A stretch of DNA of 64,000 nucleotides from Paludisphaera mucosa (lineage in GTDB: Bacteria; Planctomycetota; Planctomycetia; Isosphaerales; Isosphaeraceae): assembly GCF_029589435.1 (NCBI RefSeq), contig NZ_JARRAG010000002.1, forward strand, positions 2,356,001-2,420,000, written 5' to 3'. A model generated the notes under the pieces. That model saw only the letters and a program-made list of their open reading frames with translations, did no database searches and was not told the origin of the DNA. Every line of letters starts with the position of its first letter. Position 1 is the first letter of the stretch. Position numbers and translations under genes: made by a program. Below are positions 31,036-39,222 of this stretch, in pieces.

Positions 31036-32930
31036 CTACCGGCCGCCCCCTGAATCACCTCGCGGGGTGGGAGTCGGAAATAACGCCTCAATTTCGCGGA
31101 TCACGCGGCCTGTTTCGGCATAGGGTTCCTCGCCTACGTATCGCAGGCGTACCCGCCCTTCCGTGTCGATCACGAAGAGGCCATGGAGCGGGGTTTCCCC
31201 CATGCAGCCGTATTGGGCGAACGCCTCGCGACGCGAGTCCTCGACGAAGTGGAAATCGACGGCGTCGGTCGCCCCGACCCTCCTCATCGCGTCCCGTGGC
31301 GACTTGAGGGGCCGGTCCGACAACGCGAGGATCGTGACCCGGCCATCCAGCTTCGCGGATGCGGCCTCGACGAACTCCCGGAGCTGCTTCGAGCAGTGGC
31401 TGCACTGGAGCCCTCGGAAGAACAGGGCCACGGTGGGGCGGGGCCCACCCTTCGCGAGTTCTCGCCGCGTGCCGGACGTGTCGGTCAAGACGATGCGCGG
31501 GGCGGCCTCATCGACGCGGTCGAGTCTCTGCGCCTTGCCGGGGGCGGCCGGTTGTCCGGCCGCGTCGAGAATCTCGAACGTCTTCATCATGCCCTGGTCC
31601 TCGTGGTCGAGGATGTGGCAGTGCATGACCGTCTTGCCCGGCCAGTCGCCGAAGCGCGTGCCGACGGTCACCTTCACGTCCGAGCTGATCAGGATGGTGT
31701 CCTTCCATTGGCCGACGAGGTCGAGCCAGTCCTTGCCGTTCGCCGGGTCCAGCGGCCTGCCGTCGGCGGTCGTGACGGACAGGATCTGGAACGGATTGAC
31801 GTGCAGGTGGAACGGGTGATTGTCGGGCCCGGTACTCCCCTCGGGGGGCGGGGCTACGGTCAGCGTCCAGACCTCCGTCGTGTTCAGGACCGGGCGGATA
31901 TTCTGGTCCTTGTCGGTCATGTCGGCGGGCGTCAGCGCCTCCGAGAACGACTTGCCGTTGATCGTATAGACCTTGTTGGCGTCGTCCAACAGGAAGTGGA
32001 TGGAACGGGTCTTGTCGGCCGGCACCGTGGGGGGGTCGATCGACTGCGCCGCCGAGAAGGCGCGGCAGCGGGCGATCTCCGCGCCGGGCAGGTCCATCGA
32101 GACCGGCTGGCCTGCCACCACGACCTTGGCAAGGAAGCGAGTGGGGGCCGGGGCGGACCCCTTCCGGAGCCTCCGCGCCGCCGCCGGCGGCTGGGCCGAG
32201 AGGTAGTAGGTGCCCGGGGCGGTCGGGGCCTTGACCAGCAGGTCGCAGCGATAGCCGGGGTAGAGCGTGAGGGAATCGATCTGCGTCAACTGGCCGGTGG
32301 CCAGGCCGTCCAGGGCGACCAGGTAGAGCGGCGATTGGGCCTTGGGCACGGGATTCCCCTGCGCGTCGCCCCAGGTCAGGGTCTCCCCCTCCTCGCGGCC
32401 GGCGTGGATGAATCGCCACCGCTGGACCTCGCCCGGGCGGAGCCGGCAGGTCGGCATGAGCACGCCGTTGACGGTCGTGGCCGCAAACTGCGTCTGCCGG
32501 GGGAACTTGCGGACCGGCGGAGGCGCGGCCTTGGGGTCGGCCGGGTAGGGTTCCGGGGCGCGGTTGTCCTCGGGGTTGTAGATGTCGTCGGGATAGACCC
32601 AGCCGAGCCGTCTCGGGTCGTCTCGCATGAGGAGTTGCTGGAGCACGAAGATGCGTTCGGCGGCCGAGGCGACCTGGGGCAACGACTCCAGGTCGCTCGA
32701 AATCGGGGCCGGGCCGGCCTCGACGATCAGGGCCCCGGCGAGGCCGCTCGCGAGCTGGTAGCCGACGGAGCCGTGGTGGTGGGGGTGGTACCAGAACGTC
32801 CCGGTCGGATGGTTGTCGGGGATCTTGTACTCATACGTGTGCGACTCGCCCGGCGCGATGGCCACGTTCAGCACGTCGTCGGCCCGGCCGATCGGGCTCA
32901 CGTGCAGGCCGTGGGTGTGGATGTTGGTGG
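31036..32930 (-). pseudogene. Multicopper oxidase-peroxiredoxin fusion, 5' end cut off by an IS3-family element
   Basis: About 630 residues remain. All four copper motifs are visible: NIHTHGLHVSP (motif 1, at the very edge), FWYHPHHHGSVGYQ (motif 2), HPFHLHVNPFQIL (motif 3) and HCHILDHEDQG (motif 4). A thioredoxin-fold domain of the AhpC/TSA type follows, with LFFRGLQCSHCSKQL and FVIDTEGRVRLRYVG. The reading frame is intact to the stop, but the signal peptide and roughly the first 80-100 residues are replaced by the IS end at 32931. The open frame extends into the IS up to 33063, but that part is IS sequence. The fused oxidase and redoxin may have acted in copper or peroxide handling outside the cell. 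Confidence 0.85.
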
Positions 32931-32994
32931 TGGACTTCCCCACGGATGGCGGGCGCCGGGTTAGGAGCGTAAGCTCGAACCCAGGAGTCCACCG

Positions 32995-33291
32995 ATGGCG
33001 AAGACACGAAGGACGTTCACCCCCGAGTTCAAGGCCGAAGCGGTCAAGCTCGTCACCGACCACGGCAAGAGCCTGGCCGAGGTCGCCCGCGACCTCGACC
33101 TCGGCGAGAGCATGCTCCGGGCCTGGAAGGCGGCCCTGGCCAAGGGCGGCGAGGACGCCTTCCCCGGTAAGGGGAACCCGCCCGCCCTGGAGGAGGAACT
33201 GCGTCGCCTCCGCGCCGAGGTCAAGCGGCTGACCATGGAGCGCGACGTGCTGAAAAAAGCGACGGCCTTCTTCGCCAGGGAGTCGTCATGA
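32995..33291 (+). CDS. IS3-family transposase OrfA (IS-A)
   Basis: 98 residues, with MAKTRRTFTPEFKAEAVKLV as the HTH_Tnp_1 start, LAEVARDLDLGESMLRAWK as the helix-turn-helix and a C-terminal leucine-zipper region (LEEELRRLRAEVKRLTMERD). The end is VLKKATAFFARESS. Run AAAAAAG (33253-33259) is a possible frameshift site. Its stop overlaps the orfB start (ATGA). Confidence 0.92.
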   Translation: MAKTRRTFTPEFKAEAVKLVTDHGKSLAEVARDLDLGESMLRAWKAALAKGGEDAFPGKGNPPALEEELRRLRAEVKRLTMERDVLKKATAFFARESS

Positions 33292-33938
33292 GGTACGACT
33301 TCGTCGAGAGTCACCGGGAGCGATGGCCGGTCCGGCTCATGTGCCGCGTCCTGCGCGTCTCCCCCGGCGGCTATTACGACTGGCGGGGGAGGCCGCAGAG
33401 CACCCGGGCGGCCAGGCAGGACGCCCTGGTCGTCTCCATCAAGGCGATCCACGGCGAGGTCAAGGCCCGCTACGGCAGCCCGAGGATCCACGCCGAGCTG
33501 GCCGCCCGGGGCGAGCCCTGCTGCGTGAACACCGTGGCCCGCCTGATGCGCCGGGAGGGGATCGCCGCGAAGACGAAGCGGAAGTTCCGCGTGACGACCG
33601 ACTCGAACCATGCCCGCCCGGTGGCCGAGAACGAGCTCGACCGTCAGTTCGAGCCGGGGGCCCCGGATCGGGCCTGGACGGCCGACATCACCTACGTGGC
33701 GACCGCCGAGGGCTGGCTCTACCTGGCGGCGGTGGAGGACCTGCACTCGCGGCGGATCGTGGGCTGGTCCATGGGCCCGCGGATCGACAGCCGGCTGGTC
33801 GTCGACGCCCTGGAGATGGCCCTGGCCCGGCGTCTGCCCGGCGCGGGGCTGGTGGCGCATTCGGACCGGGGGAGCCAGTACGCCAGCGAGCACTACAAGG
33901 AGGTGCTGGCCAGGCATGGGATCGTCTGCAGCATGTGA
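33288..33938 (+). pseudogene. IS3-family transposase OrfB (IS-A), truncated by IS-B
   Basis: 216 residues. An HTH_21 part (YGSPRIHAELAARG) precedes the rve integrase core with the first two acids (Asp in WTADITYV, Asp in VAHSDRGSQYAS). The frame ends after GIVCSM because IS-B starts at 33936 (TGAAC...), which supplies the stop codon. The catalytic Glu and C-terminus are gone here. A C-terminal piece of the same kind lies at 39223-39382. Confidence 0.9.
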
Positions 33939-34402
33939 ACTTCCCCACGGATGGCGAGCGCCTAGGTGAGAGCGTAAGCTCGACCTGAGGAGGCCCCCGA
34001 TGGCGAAGGCCCGAAGGACGCTCACGCGCGAGTTCAAGGTCGAGGCGGTGCGTCGCATCGACGAGCGGGGCGAGAGCCCGGCCGAGGTGGCCCGCGAGCT
34101 CGACCTCGGCGAGAGCATGCTCCGGGGCTGGCGGCAGGCCCCGGCCGCCGAGGGCGGCCGGGCCTTCCCGGGCAAGGGCTGCCAGCCCGCCCTGGAGGAG
34201 GAGCTGCGGCGGCTCCGGGCCGAGGTCGAGCGGCTGCAGGCGGAGCGCGACATCCTGCCTCTGAACGCGTCAATTGCGCGGCCGACGTTTTCGCCGGAAT
34301 CGTCTCCGGAAGCGATCCTGGTGTCCGTCCGAACCTGATCGTCAGGCGCGACGGGGCCTACGCCCCTGAAGGCGGATCGCGCGCCGACTCATCCGGCCGA
34401 GG

Positions 34403-35689
34403 TTACGCCTCCAGTTCCGCGACTTTCGGCTTGGGCCCCTTGCGCGGAGGCGGGGCATGGACCGCCTCGGCGAACTCCCTCGCGCCGGCCGCGTCGAGGG
34501 CACGTCGCTCTCCCGGGGGCCATATCTGCGGCCCTTTCACTTCGGGAAGCCCTACGCGGGCGTATGTGCGGTTCAGTCGATCTTTGAGCTCTGAACCCGG
34601 CGGTTGCCCCGTTTTCGGTTTGGTCGACTTGCCCGCCTCCTCGGCGGCCCGCTCGACGTGCCGCAACTTGGCCTGCACCCGCTCGGGCCGAGCGTAGCGA
34701 TAAGGCTCGTTGTTCTTGAGCATCAGGAAGGCGATCGTCACGAGCTTGCGGGCCGTGGCGACGATCGCCACGTTGCGGGCCTTCCGCTTCTTCAGCCGCC
34801 GGTAGAAGGCGCCCAGGGGTCCGGGGTGCTCGGCGGCATGCTGGGCCGCCTGGGTGAGCATGGCCCGCGCCGTCGAGCTGCCCGCCTTGGTGATCGGGCC
34901 TCGGTAGCACTTGCCCGCCGACTGCCGGACGATCGGCGTCAGGCCCAGGTAGCTGGCGGCGTGATCGCCGTCGCTGAACCGGGCGACGTCCCCGAGCGCG
35001 GCGACGAGCGTCAGGGCCACGCCGTGGGCGACCCCGGGCAAGGTCATCAGGAGCCGGACGCGGTCGTCGTGATGGGCCAGCGTCCGCAACTGCGCGTCGA
35101 GCGACTCGAGCTCGGCGTCGACCGCGTCGTAGAGCCTCAGGAATCGATCCACCGTGCCCCGGGCGTCCTCGGGGAGTTCCAGAGCACGCACCCAGGCCAG
35201 GCCCTTGGCCGTGAAGAGCCCGCCCTCGGGCAGGACGACCAGCAGCCCGGCGAGGACGCCGTGGATGCGATTCTTGAACCGGGTGCGGTCTCCGACCAGG
35301 GCAGACGGCACGCCGGTCAGGTGCCTCAGCCGCTGGGTGACGCCGTCCGGCTCCCAGACCTCGGGCAGGAATTCGCACCGCAGGAGGTTCGCCAGGACCT
35401 CGGCGTCGATCTCGTCGGTCTTCACCTTCGCCTGGGCGATGGCCCTGGTCTGCATGGGATTGCCCACGACGATCGCCGCGACGAACGGGCGGAAGATCGC
35501 GGACACGGCCCAGGTGCTGGTCGTCGCCTCGACGGCCAGCTTGTCGGCCGGTTCGAGGTGAGCCCGGGCGAAGGCCTCGAGTGAGTTGCGCTCGCAGGCG
35601 ACGGAGTGGCGGGCGAGGACCTTCCCCGTCGCGTCGAGGATGCAGACCTCCAGCGTGCGCCTGTGGAGGTCGAGTCCGACGAATCGCAT
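34403..35689 (-). CDS. IS110-family transposase (DEDD RuvC-like plus Tnp20 domain)
   Basis: 428 residues. The N-terminal DEDD domain starts MRFVGLDLHRRTLEVCILD (first Asp), with VEATTSTWAVSAIF (Glu) and AKVKTDEIDAEVLANLL (Asp pair). The C-terminal transposase_20 domain has LMTLPGVAHGVALTLVAALGD, FSDGDHAASYLGLTPIVRQS and GPITKAGSSTARAMLTQAA with the conserved Ser region. The length is normal to slightly long, with a Pro/Lys-rich tail. Members recombine DNA guided by a bridge RNA. Confidence 0.93.
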   Translation of the reverse strand: MRFVGLDLHRRTLEVCILDATGKVLARHSVACERNSLEAFARAHLEPADKLAVEATTSTWAVSAIFRPFVAAIVVGNPMQTRAIAQAKVKTDEIDAEVLANLLRCEFLPEVWEPDGVTQRLRHLTGVPSALVGDRTRFKNRIHGVLAGLLVVLPEGGLFTAKGLAWVRALELPEDARGTVDRFLRLYDAVDAELESLDAQLRTLAHHDDRVRLLMTLPGVAHGVALTLVAALGDVARFSDGDHAASYLGLTPIVRQSAGKCYRGPITKAGSSTARAMLTQAAQHAAEHPGPLGAFYRRLKKRKARNVAIVATARKLVTIAFLMLKNNEPYRYARPERVQAKLRHVERAAEEAGKSTKPKTGQPPGSELKDRLNRTYARVGLPEVKGPQIWPPGERRALDAAGAREFAEAVHAPPPRKGPKPKVAELEA

Positions 35690-35990
35690 GTGGGTGCCTC
35701 CTGGTGTGGTGCGACCGAGCCGATGGATCGCGGTGAACGGACGGGCCGAACGGCATCTACCTCTTCGAACTCGTGGCTCAGCCGGGTGGGCCGGTGAGGG
35801 CGGTCGGTTGAAAAAACGGGCTCGAAGCCCACAGGATCTCTCGACCTGCCCCGAGTAGGATCGGCTCCGCCTCCACCACCGAGGTGGTGCTCCGCTCGTC
35901 CCATGCCCGGCACGGCCATGGGAGCGTGTCTCGTCGCCGTCGGCAAGCTGGCGGCATGCCTCGACGGCATCGTTTTATCGTTCATACCCG
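35690..35990 (-). ncRNA. Candidate bridge RNA region of the IS110 element
   Basis: The 300-bp noncoding region upstream of the transposase is where IS110-group elements encode their bridge RNA. It contains several foldable parts: CACCAC/GTGGTG around CGAG (35875-35890 area), CCCATG/CATGGG around GCCCGGCACGGC (35900-35922 area) and a GCATGCC/GGCAT pairing near 35950-35970. Exact ends and the target- and donor-binding loops could not be determined by eye. Confidence 0.4.
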
Positions 35991-36028
35991 TTAAAAAAAG
36001 CGACGGCCTTCTTCGCCGGGGAGTCGTC

Positions 36029-36765
36029 GTGAGGTACGACTTCGTCGAACGCCGCCGGGGGCGATGGCCGGTCCGGACGATGTGCCGGGTCCTGCGCGTC
36101 TCGCCCGGCGGATTCCACGGCCGGCGGGGGAGGCCTTCGAGCGCGAGGGCCCTGCGGAGCGGGGCCCTGGTCGAGGCCGTCCGCGACGTCCACGGCGCGT
36201 CCAAGGCCCGCTACGGCAGCCCGCGGGCGCACGCCGAGCTGGCGGACCGCGGCGTGCCCTGCTGCGTGGACACGGCGGCGAAGCTGATGCGTCGCCACGG
36301 CATCGCCGCGAGGGCCGGGCGGAAGTTCCGCCGCACCACCGACTCGGGCCGCGGCCTGCCCGTCGCCGAGAACATCCTGGGGCGGGAGTTCGAGCCCGGC
36401 GCGACGGACCGGGCCTGGGCGGCCGACGTCACCTACGTCCCGACCGGCGAGGGGCGGCTCTACCTGGCCGCGGTCGAGGACCTGCACCCGCGGCGGATCG
36501 TGGGCTGGTCGATGCCCGGGCGGAACGACGGCCGCCTGGCCGTCGACGCCCTGGAGATGGCGGTGGCGCGACGGCCCCCCGGCGAGGGCCTCGTGGCCCA
36601 CTCGGACCGCGGGAGCGCCTACGCGAGCGGGCATTACCGGCGAATCCTGGCCCGCCGTCGGATCGCCTGCAGCATGAGCCGGCGGGCGAACTGCCGGGAC
36701 GACGCCCCGATGGAGTCGTTCTTCGCGAGCTTGAAGAAGGAGCGGACGACGACCTCCCATCGACG
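36029..36765 (+). pseudogene. IS3-family transposase OrfB (IS-B), 3' truncated
   Basis: Starts GTG AGG TAC GAC at the place where IS-A has ATG AGG TAC GAC. It retains YGSPRAHAELADRG, Asp in WAADVTYVP, Asp in VAHSDRGSAYAS and Glu in APMESFFASLKKE, so all three acids are present. Homology ends after KKERTTTSH near 36765, where the recombinase unit begins. The open frame continues to 36841 with unrelated sequence. The normal last 45 or so residues are missing. Confidence 0.85.
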
Positions 36766-36794: not shown

Positions 36795-37055
36795 TTGACC
36801 GCGTGTCCGTGGGCCTTGCTCGACCTGGCCCGCTTCTGTGAGGAGTATCACGCTCACGCCGGAGGAGCTGCACCATGCCCGACCGACCCATCCCCGTCCC
36901 CCCCGCGCCTGACCCCGCCCCGACCGACCGGGCCTCGGTGGCAGGACCTGCCGACCGGCCATCAAGAAGAGCTGCTCCGACGACTCGGCCTGATGCTCGC
37001 GGAGCGAATCGCCGGCCCCGACGCACGAGCGGAGGGGACTCATGAGCCGCGCTGA
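36795..37055 (+). CDS. Small protein preceding the serine recombinase
   Basis: 86 residues with a TTG start at 36795 (a later start is possible). A Pro-rich middle is followed by WQDLPTGHQEELLRRLGLML, a helical pattern seen in small proteins that often sit just before recombinase genes in such elements (recalled, not searched). Its end overlaps the recombinase ATG by 14 bases, which suggests coupling. No function is known. Confidence 0.5.
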   Translation: MTACPWALLDLARFCEEYHAHAGGAAPCPTDPSPSPPRLTPPRPTGPRWQDLPTGHQEELLRRLGLMLAERIAGPDARAEGTHEPR

Positions 37056-39222
37056 CGCCGCCTCGCCGTCCGCCCACAAGATCCGCCCCCGGCACTGCGA
37101 TCGCCTCGCCGTCGTTTACGTCCGCCAGTCGACCCCGCAGCAGGTCGCCGGCAACCGCGAATCGGCCGACTTGCAATACCAACTGCGACGACGGGCCGTC
37201 GCCCTTGGCTGGGCCGACGACCGCGTCGTGGTGATCGACGACGACCAGGGGATCAGCGGCGCGTCCGTCGAGAACCGGCCGGGGTTCCAGCGGCTGCTGG
37301 CCGAGGTGTCGCTCGGGCACGTCGGCGTCGTATTCGGCCGCGAGATGAGCCGGCTGTCGCGGTCGTGCAAGGACTGGTATCAACTGCTGGAGCTCTGCGG
37401 CCTGTTCCAGGTCCTGCTCGCGGACGCCGACGGCGTGTACGACCCGACCGATCCGAACGACCGGATGTTGCTGGGGCTGCGCGGCATGATGAGCGAGGCG
37501 GAGGTCCACGTCCTGAAGGCGCGGATGCACCAGGGCAAGTTGAACAAGGCCCGGCGGGGCGAGTTATTTACATGCGTACCGGTCGGGTACGTGGGCTCGC
37601 CCGACGGCGGGATCGCCATGGACCCGGACGAGCAGGTGCGCTCGGCGGTGTCGCTGGTGTTCGCCAAGTTCGCCGAACTCGGCTCGTTGACGAAGGCGCA
37701 CGCCTACTTCGCGGCCAACGACATCCAGCTCGGGCTGCGGGTGTACAAGGGGCCGGGCAAGGGGCGCCTGGAATGGCGCAGGCCCCGACGCAGCGGCCTC
37801 TACGAAATGCTGCGACACCCGATCTACGCAGGGGCCTACGCCTACGGCCGCTCCCCCTTCGACCCGACCCGAAGGGTCGCGGGCAAGCCGAAGTCGGGCC
37901 GCTGGAACGCCCCGCCCGAGGAGTGGGCGTGCCTGCTCCGGGACGCCGTCCCCGCGTACATCCCGTGGGAACAGTTCGAAGCGAACCGGCGACGGCTGGC
38001 CGCGAATGATCGCGGCCCCGGATCGAAGAAGGCGACGGGTCGTGCGCCGACCCTCCTGAACGGGATCGTCCGGTGCGGTCGGTGCGGCAGGCCGATGGGC
38101 GCGCGAAACGCGCGGGCGTCGGCGAACCCGCGGTACGCCTGCGACTGAGAGTTCCGGGAATACGGCGGGCCGCGATGCCAGGGCCTGGTGGCCGCCTACC
38201 CGGACCGCCTGATCGAGTCGCTGGTGCTCAAGGCGGTCGAACCGGCGTCGCTGGAGCTGAGCCTCCGCACCGCCGGGCGAGTCGAGCAGGATCGGGAACG
38301 GCTGCACGGGCTCTGGAAGCAGAGGCAGGAGCGGGCCGAGTACCAGACGGACCGGGCGCGGCGGCAGTACGACGCGGTCGACCCGGAGAACCGATTGGTG
38401 GCCCGGGAGTTGGAGCGGCAGTGGGAGCAGAAGCTGGCCGAGCGACGGAGGCTGATGGAGGACTACGACCGATTCCGGGCCGAACAGCCGCGACATCTGA
38501 GCGCGTCCGATCGCGAGCGGATCGCGACATTGGCCGCCGACCTGCCCGGGCTGTGGCGCTACCCGACGACGACCGGAGGCGATCGGCTAGCGATCGTCCG
38601 GCTCCTGATCGAGCGCGTGGAACTGACCCGTGCCGGGGAGTCGGAGCGGGTCGACGTGGTGATCCACTGGCGCGGCGGGACGGTCACGCGGCACGCGATC
38701 CGCCAGGGCCTGCGGACCTACCATTCGCTCGGCGGGCTGGCACGGCTCCGGGAGCGGATCCTGGAGCTGCGCGGGGAGGGACGGACCGCGGATGCGATCG
38801 CCGAGAGGCTCGATCGCGAGGGCTATCGGGCGGCTCGCGGCGACGGGTTCACCGGCGACCTGGTTCGTCAGTTGCTGGCGCGTTTCGGGAGGACGGGCGT
38901 CCCGGCCGGCGTGCGCGACGCGAATGACCTGCCGGGGCCGGGCGAGTGGTGGTTGCCTGCCCTGGCGGCGGAACTCGGAGTGAAGCCGATCGTCGTCCAC
39001 CGATGGCGGTGGTCGGGATGGCTGTACGCGCGGCATCTGCGAGGCGAGAATGGCCGGTGGATCGTGTGGGCCGACGCCGCCGAAGTCGGTCGACTCCGCC
39101 GGCTGCGGGCGTTCGAGATAGAGTACCACGGACGCCGGACGCCTCCGCCCGACCTGACCAGCCGGCCGAGTCGACCGGGCGACCAGGGCCTGACAACGTG
39201 CTTGCAGAGTGGAGGTGAATGA
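37042..39222 (+). pseudogene. Large serine recombinase interrupted by one in-frame TGA
   Basis: 726 codons in one frame, broken only by TGA at 38146-38148. The N-terminal resolvase domain has VVYVRQSTPQQV with the nucleophile Ser, GISGAS, and VVFGREMSRLSRS. A recombinase domain (VPVGYVGSPDGG to YEMLRHPIYAGAYAYGR) and a zinc ribbon follow (IVRCGRCGRPM...YACD). The stop falls between the second Cys pair residue and YGGPRCQGLV. After it come a coiled-coil region, IERVELTRAGESERVDVVIHW and a C-terminal HTH-like part. The catalytic domain could still be made as a truncated 368-residue protein. TGG (Trp) to TGA is one possible change. Confidence 0.85.

Follow-up and report, generated by a model that had tools for sequence, protein, structure and literature searches.

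A predicted bridge RNA with mirrored guide order upstream of a long IS110-family transposase gene in Paludisphaera mucosa

Two arrangements of gene, RNA and guides have been described among the RNA-guided insertion sequences (ISs) of the IS110 and IS1111 groups. According to two reports on IS621 (PMC11208160, PMC11208158), its bridge RNA is encoded upstream of the recombinase gene and consists of two modules with guide loops flanking a hairpin, the core dinucleotide stands at the 3' edge of the guide, and a promoter is formed by the joined ends. IS110-group elements have a long upstream noncoding region and a short right end, and their guide order, known from IS621 and ISEc21, is a bottom-strand match on the 5' side and a top-strand match on the 3' side. 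In IS1111 elements, as described in PMC11187229, the complement of the top strand comes first and the match to the bottom strand second, ISEc21 showing the reverse; their RNA usually lies downstream of a gene for 330-350 amino acids, a few members having an upstream noncoding region, and transposases of the IS110 subgroup have 395-455 amino acids. Here we analyse an IS110-family element of 1736 bp at 34258-35993 on the minus strand of a 64,000-nucleotide stretch of the Paludisphaera mucosa genome (contig NZ_JARRAG010000002.1, positions 2,356,001 to 2,420,000; the window). A bridge RNA is very probably encoded in its leader, on the same strand as the transposase gene, and the guides of this RNA appear to stand in mirrored order relative to IS621.

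The element carries an open reading frame (ORF) for a DEDD transposase/recombinase of 428 amino acids (34403-35689, minus strand) that matches PF01548 (8.5e-23), PF02371 (8.7e-22) and the model NF033542 for IS110 family RNA-guided transposases (248 bits at a cut-off of 140); the two Pfam domains together place the element in the IS110 family sensu lato. Between this gene and the left end of the element lies the leader of 304 nt (35690-35993), which we take to be noncoding, in agreement with the preliminary description of about 300 noncoding nucleotides before the gene, and which is overlapped by ORFs in other frames of this G+C-rich DNA. The gap between the gene and the right end is 145 nt.

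The case for a bridge RNA starts from the target loop. The 5' target guide GAGATCC[TG] (35832-35840, minus strand) complements eight of the nine bases of the right flank [CA]GGATGTC, and the 3' target guide GTTTTTT[CA] (35809-35817, minus strand) equals the left flank CTTTTTT followed by the core [CA], again in eight of nine bases, with the CA core included in both counts. The restored empty site scores 14 of 16 and ranks first of 124,496 sites in the window, the next-best sites among the matches listed, including the sister copy (IS-A) of the interrupted IS3-type element, scoring 12. The preliminary description had proposed a bridge RNA in this leader and had named two observations that would speak against it, the lack of a stable multi-loop fold and of any loop complementary to either side of the target. 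Neither was made: one loop matches both sides of the target, a second loop resembles the element's own ends, the multi-loop fold is conserved as described below, and from these sequence comparisons a bridge RNA is very probably encoded here.

How general is this match among related elements? For the comparison the guides were taken as two stretches of nine nucleotides, one ending just upstream of the T in front of the first hairpin and the other following this hairpin, and scores are group-weighted means over the seven non-core bases, set against 10,000 permutations. The first set comprises 26 elements with 15 distinct guide pairs, a right flank being used in 25 and a left flank in 20; their boundaries come from end motifs and not from the guides, except for L073, whose right end was placed by eye. 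The 5' guide matches the complement of its own right flank at 4.10 of 7 bases compared with 2.56 after permutation (reached in 0 of 10,000), and the 3' guide is identical to its own left flank at 4.58 of 7 compared with 3.29 (9 of 10,000). These counts are 0 and 26 for the 5' and 3' guide, respectively, without L073, and 6 and 162 when the window element and its P. soli relative are removed as well. A second set of 20, consisting of 18 further plasmid elements from Alpha- and Betaproteobacteria together with L110 and L111 (right flank in 17, left flank in 19), gives 4.11 of 7 compared with 2.49 for the 5' guide (0 of 10,000; 12 groups) and 4.72 compared with 4.25 for the 3' guide (141 of 10,000; 13 groups). 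The right end of L110 was first spotted with the help of its own guide; without L110 and L119 the permutation counts are 1 for the 5' guide and 181 for the 3' guide. Moreover, in a positional scan of 230 offsets against four flank strings, scored as own minus other flanks, the two target loops take first and second place of 920. Loop sequences follow each element's own target.

Left out of the guide counts were L004 (target loop unrecognisable, and no match in its genome G008 to our RNA model R1, described below), L006 (RNA cut by the contig end), L013 (right end missing), L008 and L046 (no right flank found, although both stay in the RNA alignment) and partial loci without the RNA, such as L027, L030 and L032; for L010 only the right flank was used. 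All 20 left cores of the first set and all 19 of the second are TA, and the core at the right junction is TA in 23 and CA in two of 25 in the first set and TG in nine, TC in six and TA in two of 17 in the second; these counts arise partly by construction because the boundary motifs contain the core (in the first set C/T-A on the right and TA on the left).

An alignment of 20 leaders, taken from Planctomycetota, Myxococcota, Acidobacteriota and two plasmids of Alphaproteobacteria, served to derive the structure of the RNA and to build model R1. RNAalifold predicts two similar modules, each composed of a stem, a 5' loop, a hairpin, a 3' loop and the closing strand of the stem, with at least one double change in 12 of 27 pairs. 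In the window the core region of the predicted RNA spans 35725-35857 on the minus strand, with a target-binding module at 35797-35852 (stem 35842-35852 with 35797-35806, hairpin 35818-35830; helices 1 and 2) and a donor-binding module at 35751-35793 (stem 35790-35793 with 35751-35754, hairpin 35767-35779; helices 3 and 4). A comparative test on a structure of 22 pairs named by us, with 500 shuffles of the 20 leaders, yielded 97.5% paired cells compared with 92.1% in shuffled alignments, 11 pairs changing on both sides compared with 3.6, 28 cells with a change on both sides compared with 6.3, and a covariation score of 0.260 compared with 0.147, none of the four values being reached by any shuffle, and slid structures giving covariation scores of at most 0.084. 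As judged from the alignment, a two-module RNA with internal loops is conserved in the 20 relatives.

R1 scores the window RNA, which is among its 20 building sequences, at 121 bits and the next match in the window at 10.6 bits. In addition, it recovers all 18 plasmid loci L119-L136, none of which was used for building it, at 92.7-111.7 bits. Weak matches occur in L108 (37.2 bits) and L109 (27.6 bits), and nothing is found up to E = 1 in six IS621 loci, L112, L137 and L138. The two weakly matching loci (L108 1282-1424, L109 1226-1422) belong to distant relatives with 38-39% identity and proteins of 465 and 491 amino acids, and carry GTCG[TA] after the first hairpin. The covariance-model search suggested in the preliminary description came out negative for Rfam 15, in which the leader has no match at gathering thresholds and the sole match of the window is a tRNA elsewhere; a known Rfam family as the identity of the leader RNA was rejected accordingly.

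The second loop resembles the element's own ends, as would be expected on the donor side. The putative 5' donor guide CACCCGG (35782-35788, minus strand) is the complement of the left end ACGGGTA at five of seven bases, and the 3' donor guide AGAGG[TA] (35758-35764, minus strand) equals the right end AGAGG followed by the left-end core TA. By own score, the best of 1000 combinations has the right end, in sense orientation, at the 3' loop, and the second best has the left end, as its complement, at the 5' loop. By our own reading the 3' donor guide and the final five bases of the right end are identical in all but one of the 25 first-set elements with a right flank (24 of 25), with pairs such as AGAGG/AGAGG, ATAGG/ATAGG and, in L017, ATAGA/ATAGA; one mismatch is found in P. 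soli and one in L004, which stands outside the first set. Among the plasmid elements ATCCG prevails as the guide, with CATCCG as the right end. The 3' donor guide of the window element is two nucleotides longer than the DNA (TTCGAAGAGG compared with TTCAGAGG), an arrangement that resembles the discontiguous right donor guide of IS621. The donor loop appears to fit the element's own ends, less decisively than the target loop fits the target.

The joined ends give the pattern TTGAC[AG]-16/17-[TC]ATGA[AT] in 17 of 19 elements, many of which are close Sorangium relatives, and this is what would be expected of a promoter formed by circularisation. In the window element the right end TTGACGCGTTCAGAGG (34258-34273, minus strand) contains the -35-like hexamer TTGACG and the inverted repeat arm CGTTCA, and the left end TAACGGGTATGAACG (35979-35993, minus strand) the donor core TA, the -10-like hexamer TATGAA and the arm TGAACG. 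Of 11 distinct end pairs, 10 contain inverted repeats of 6-10 bp, counted without a shuffle control, at a distance of 2-4 bp from the right end and 7-9 bp from the left. In one plasmid element (L135) the right end (CTTGTCGATCTCATCCG and bases upstream of it) is tandemly repeated 3' of the transposase gene, just before the target flank.

Several observations weigh against the reading given so far. In the second set the 5' guide result becomes weaker without L110 and L119-L123 (241 of 10,000), and the 3' guide compared with the right flank, which is the IS621 order, lies above the permutations (31 of 10,000), its mean of 1.76 of 7 being at chance level. The 5' guide matches poorly in So0157_28 (1 of 7), L009 and L107 (2 of 7 each) of the first set and in L124 and L125 (1 of 7 each) of the plasmid set, in which L131 also matches at 2 of 7 only. 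In the donor scan scored as own minus other, the 3' donor guide drops to fourth place and the 5' donor guide has no excess at all; little difference between own and other is seen here because the element ends are conserved. A fifth measure of the comparative test, the number of further pair types, is not above the shuffles (146 of 500), and folds of the single sequence are unexceptional against dinucleotide shuffles for the 304-nt leader (z -1.14, 13 of 100 as good) and likewise for a 131-nt segment (z -1.16, 24 of 200 shuffles as good). The structure is beyond chance in the comparative test only, and of the several hairpins announced in the preliminary description it holds that they can form, albeit in the single sequence no better than in shuffled ones.

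How does the order of the guides compare with that of IS621? As control, five IS621 copies from E. coli plasmids were read by the same conventions. Their 5' target guide ATCGGGC[CT] departs by a single base from the left flank, which reads ATCAGGC[CT] or ATCGGGT[CT]. The 3' target guide GCGT[AG] is complementary to the right flank [CT]ACGC, in full in two copies, to within one base in two and to within two bases in one. On the donor side, the 5' guide ACAGTAT is identical to the right end, and the 3' guide CAAG is complementary to the left end. Since the control returns the published order, the clade of the window element appears to be mirrored in both loops, with the 5' guides facing the downstream flank and the left end and the 3' guides the upstream flank and the right end. 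This order, which goes beyond the preliminary description, is on the sequences compared here common to relatives in other phyla. IS621 differs further in its recombinase of 326 instead of 428 amino acids and its core CT instead of CA/TA, and R1 does not detect its RNA at the threshold given above. Transcription of the RNA from the opposite strand was rejected by reasoning, as the core would then sit at the 5' edge of the guide, unlike in IS621.

The window clade thus shows an IS1111-like polarity in an IS110-like element: the long upstream noncoding region and short right end of the IS110 group are present and its guide order is absent, whereas the IS1111 guide order is present without the downstream noncoding region and the short transposase of that group. 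ISEc11, an IS1111-group element with a seekRNA, shares the guide order with the window element according to PMC11187229, has subterminal inverted repeats that the short window repeat resembles, and differs by the usual position of the RNA downstream of a gene for 330-350 amino acids. ISEc21, of IS110 type, likewise has an upstream noncoding region and a conserved site in IS3-family elements according to the same paper, but its guide order is that of IS621 and its target comprises the codons around the second D of DDE, whereas the window element targets the 3' part of orfA.

Could the element be an IS1111 member whose RNA has moved upstream, so that the mirrored order would be expected? The IS1111-type order and the inverted repeats in 10 of 11 end pairs speak for such an origin, as do the few IS1111 members with an upstream noncoding region mentioned in PMC11187229. 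The transposase of 428 amino acids is, however, well above the 330-350 of IS1111 and within the 395-455 of the IS110 subgroup given there, so that gene length and upstream noncoding region appear to fit the IS110 subgroup. The window repeat of 6 bp (up to 10 bp in relatives, without a shuffle control) falls short of the 7-17 bp that is the IS1111 criterion, and in a tree from which five rows were left out the three IS1111-like rows, assigned by us from length and layout alone, stand apart from the rest; the tree is used weakly because its branches are very long. We regard an IS1111 origin as unlikely. Far less probable is a bridge RNA of ordinary IS621 order whose mirrored appearance is a reading error: the upstream noncoding region and the long transposase are as in IS110-type elements and one comparison in the plasmid set exceeded the permutations, but scoring by the IS621 order gives 1.07 and 1.25 of 7 for the first set and 1.62 and 1.76 for the second, all near the chance level of 1.75, and the same conventions recover the published order in IS621 itself, and the IS621 order was rejected for the clade on the own-flank scores of both sets. 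Equally improbable is an ordinary structured 5' untranslated region controlling transposase translation, with a target likeness due to chance in T-runs, for although T-runs are simple sequence and the single-sequence fold is unremarkable, at the predicted loops there is a match in the T half and in the non-T half ATCC[TG] alike, and in the two sets of 26 and 20 elements it tracks the flanks of each individual element.

Returning to the mirrored bridge RNA, the modules keep the geometry of IS621 with the core at the 3' edge of the guide, and the simplest explanation is that the RNA works alike, with the DNA in reversed orientation to the gene. In the excised circle a sigma70-like promoter, TTGACG-17 bp-TATGAA, would arise where the two ends abut and would drive synthesis of the RNA, which, with comparative support, is predicted to fold into the target-binding and the donor-binding module and would be bound by the recombinase. 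The target loop, which matches both strands of TTTTTT[CA]GGAT in the IS3-type orfA, would pair with this site, and the donor loop, matching AGAGG[TA]ACGGG at the joined ends, would pair there. By analogy with IS621 the DEDD recombinase would then exchange strands at the dinucleotide core. Since the DNA is read from the other side, the strand corresponding to the "top" strand of IS621 is predicted to be the non-coding strand here, and the first cleavage may occur on the strand opposite to that in IS621.

Target choice seems to be shared within part of the clade. The window and P. soli elements, L004, L027 and L030 share one insertion point, the codon boundary behind [DE]-[IV]-L in an orfA-like frame, and one orientation; L032 is an exception. 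The orfA identity was established by hidden Markov model (PF01527) for the ORF flanking the window element and by resemblance for the other four. The guides of L008 predict the same orfA site, its contig stopping at the element. Sorangium and acidobacterial members recognise GTCG[TA] sites, which resemble rhs-type repeats. Two Sorangium IS110 copies (L011 625-1891 and 2344-4463) lie near each other and have related target sites. L073 is located directly downstream of a terminator-like hairpin followed by T-rich sequence, its left flank, and a T-run guide may therefore also lead to terminators.

In the window the target lies inside another IS, as the preliminary description had recognised: PF01527 matches the ORF interrupted by the element, and the insertion is at the edge of an A6 run, putatively frameshift-prone according to that description, in an IS3-type orfA. 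The left flank AAAAAAGCGACG begins at 35994 (CTTTTTT, 35994-36000 on the minus strand, the A6 run being on the plus strand) and the right flank GACATCCTG finishes at 34257 ([CA]GGATGTC, 34249-34257 on the minus strand, the 3' part of orfA with codons ..ERDIL on the plus strand), in accord with the insertion point proposed earlier. The empty site had been considered exactly known from the sister copy IS-A; it is close but not exact, because the host copy has GACATCCTG beside the junction instead of GACGTGCTG. The P. soli copy, with a split transposase reading frame, interrupts a similar IS3-type element at the corresponding codon. The element ends were set by Sorangium copies with differing flanks, which define the left end as [TA]nnnGGTATGA or [TA]nnnGTTATGA and the right end as TTGAC..TTCATAGG, and the span of the window element (left end 35993, right end 34258) was assigned by homology, the P. 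soli and Sorangium copies being compared. A boundary with a TT core and CAGAGG as target was rejected, as the Sorangium copies put the end after TTCATAGG and, by our own reading, the joined flanks of both the window and the P. soli element are in the orfA frame only with CAGAGG inside the element.

Two adjacent IS3-type elements occupy 32995-33938 and 34000-36760, the second being split by the IS110 element; their orfB-like proteins are 71% identical and are the sole two matches in the own genome at E 1e-40. The IS cluster adjoins a serine recombinase (PF00239, PF07508) at 37042-39222 on the plus strand, in two ORFs of different frames (37042-38148 and 38188-39222), and an ORF at 31036-33063 on the minus strand, multicopper oxidase-like by eye, terminates within the neighbouring IS3-type orfA region.

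The own genome holds one full copy of the element and two short partial matches, and one match to R1. In samples of genomes, relatives occur in three of 392 from the phylum at E 1e-60, the own genome included, in one of 235 genomes, which is the query's own Sorangium, and in four of 396 genomes, the centre genome included; 12 stretches of viral contigs contained no relative. The mirrored order is seen in Planctomycetota, Myxococcota, Acidobacteriota and Pseudomonadota. We consider it rather probable that these elements represent a widespread lineage of long IS110 elements whose bridge RNAs have the guides of both loops in mirrored order compared with IS621, combining the layout of IS110 with the guide order and inverted repeats of IS1111. 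A literature search, mostly of open-access text without figures, revealed no upstream mirrored bridge RNA in long IS110 elements, though ISPpu10, ISAar29 and ISHne5 in Extended Data Fig. 10c of PMC11208160 may already be examples of this order.

Bridge recombinases are under development as programmable tools for DNA insertion, and the design rule that relates guides to flanks comes mainly from IS621. The window clade appears to need the reverse rule, and designs following the IS621 rule would miss the target or the orientation; natural members with differing guides are ready test pairs. Furthermore, polarity and RNA position appear to be separable, which bears on the divergence of IS110 and IS1111. 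If the mirrored order holds, guide order and RNA position would evolve independently, and the lineage may link the two groups and may start recombination on the opposite strand.
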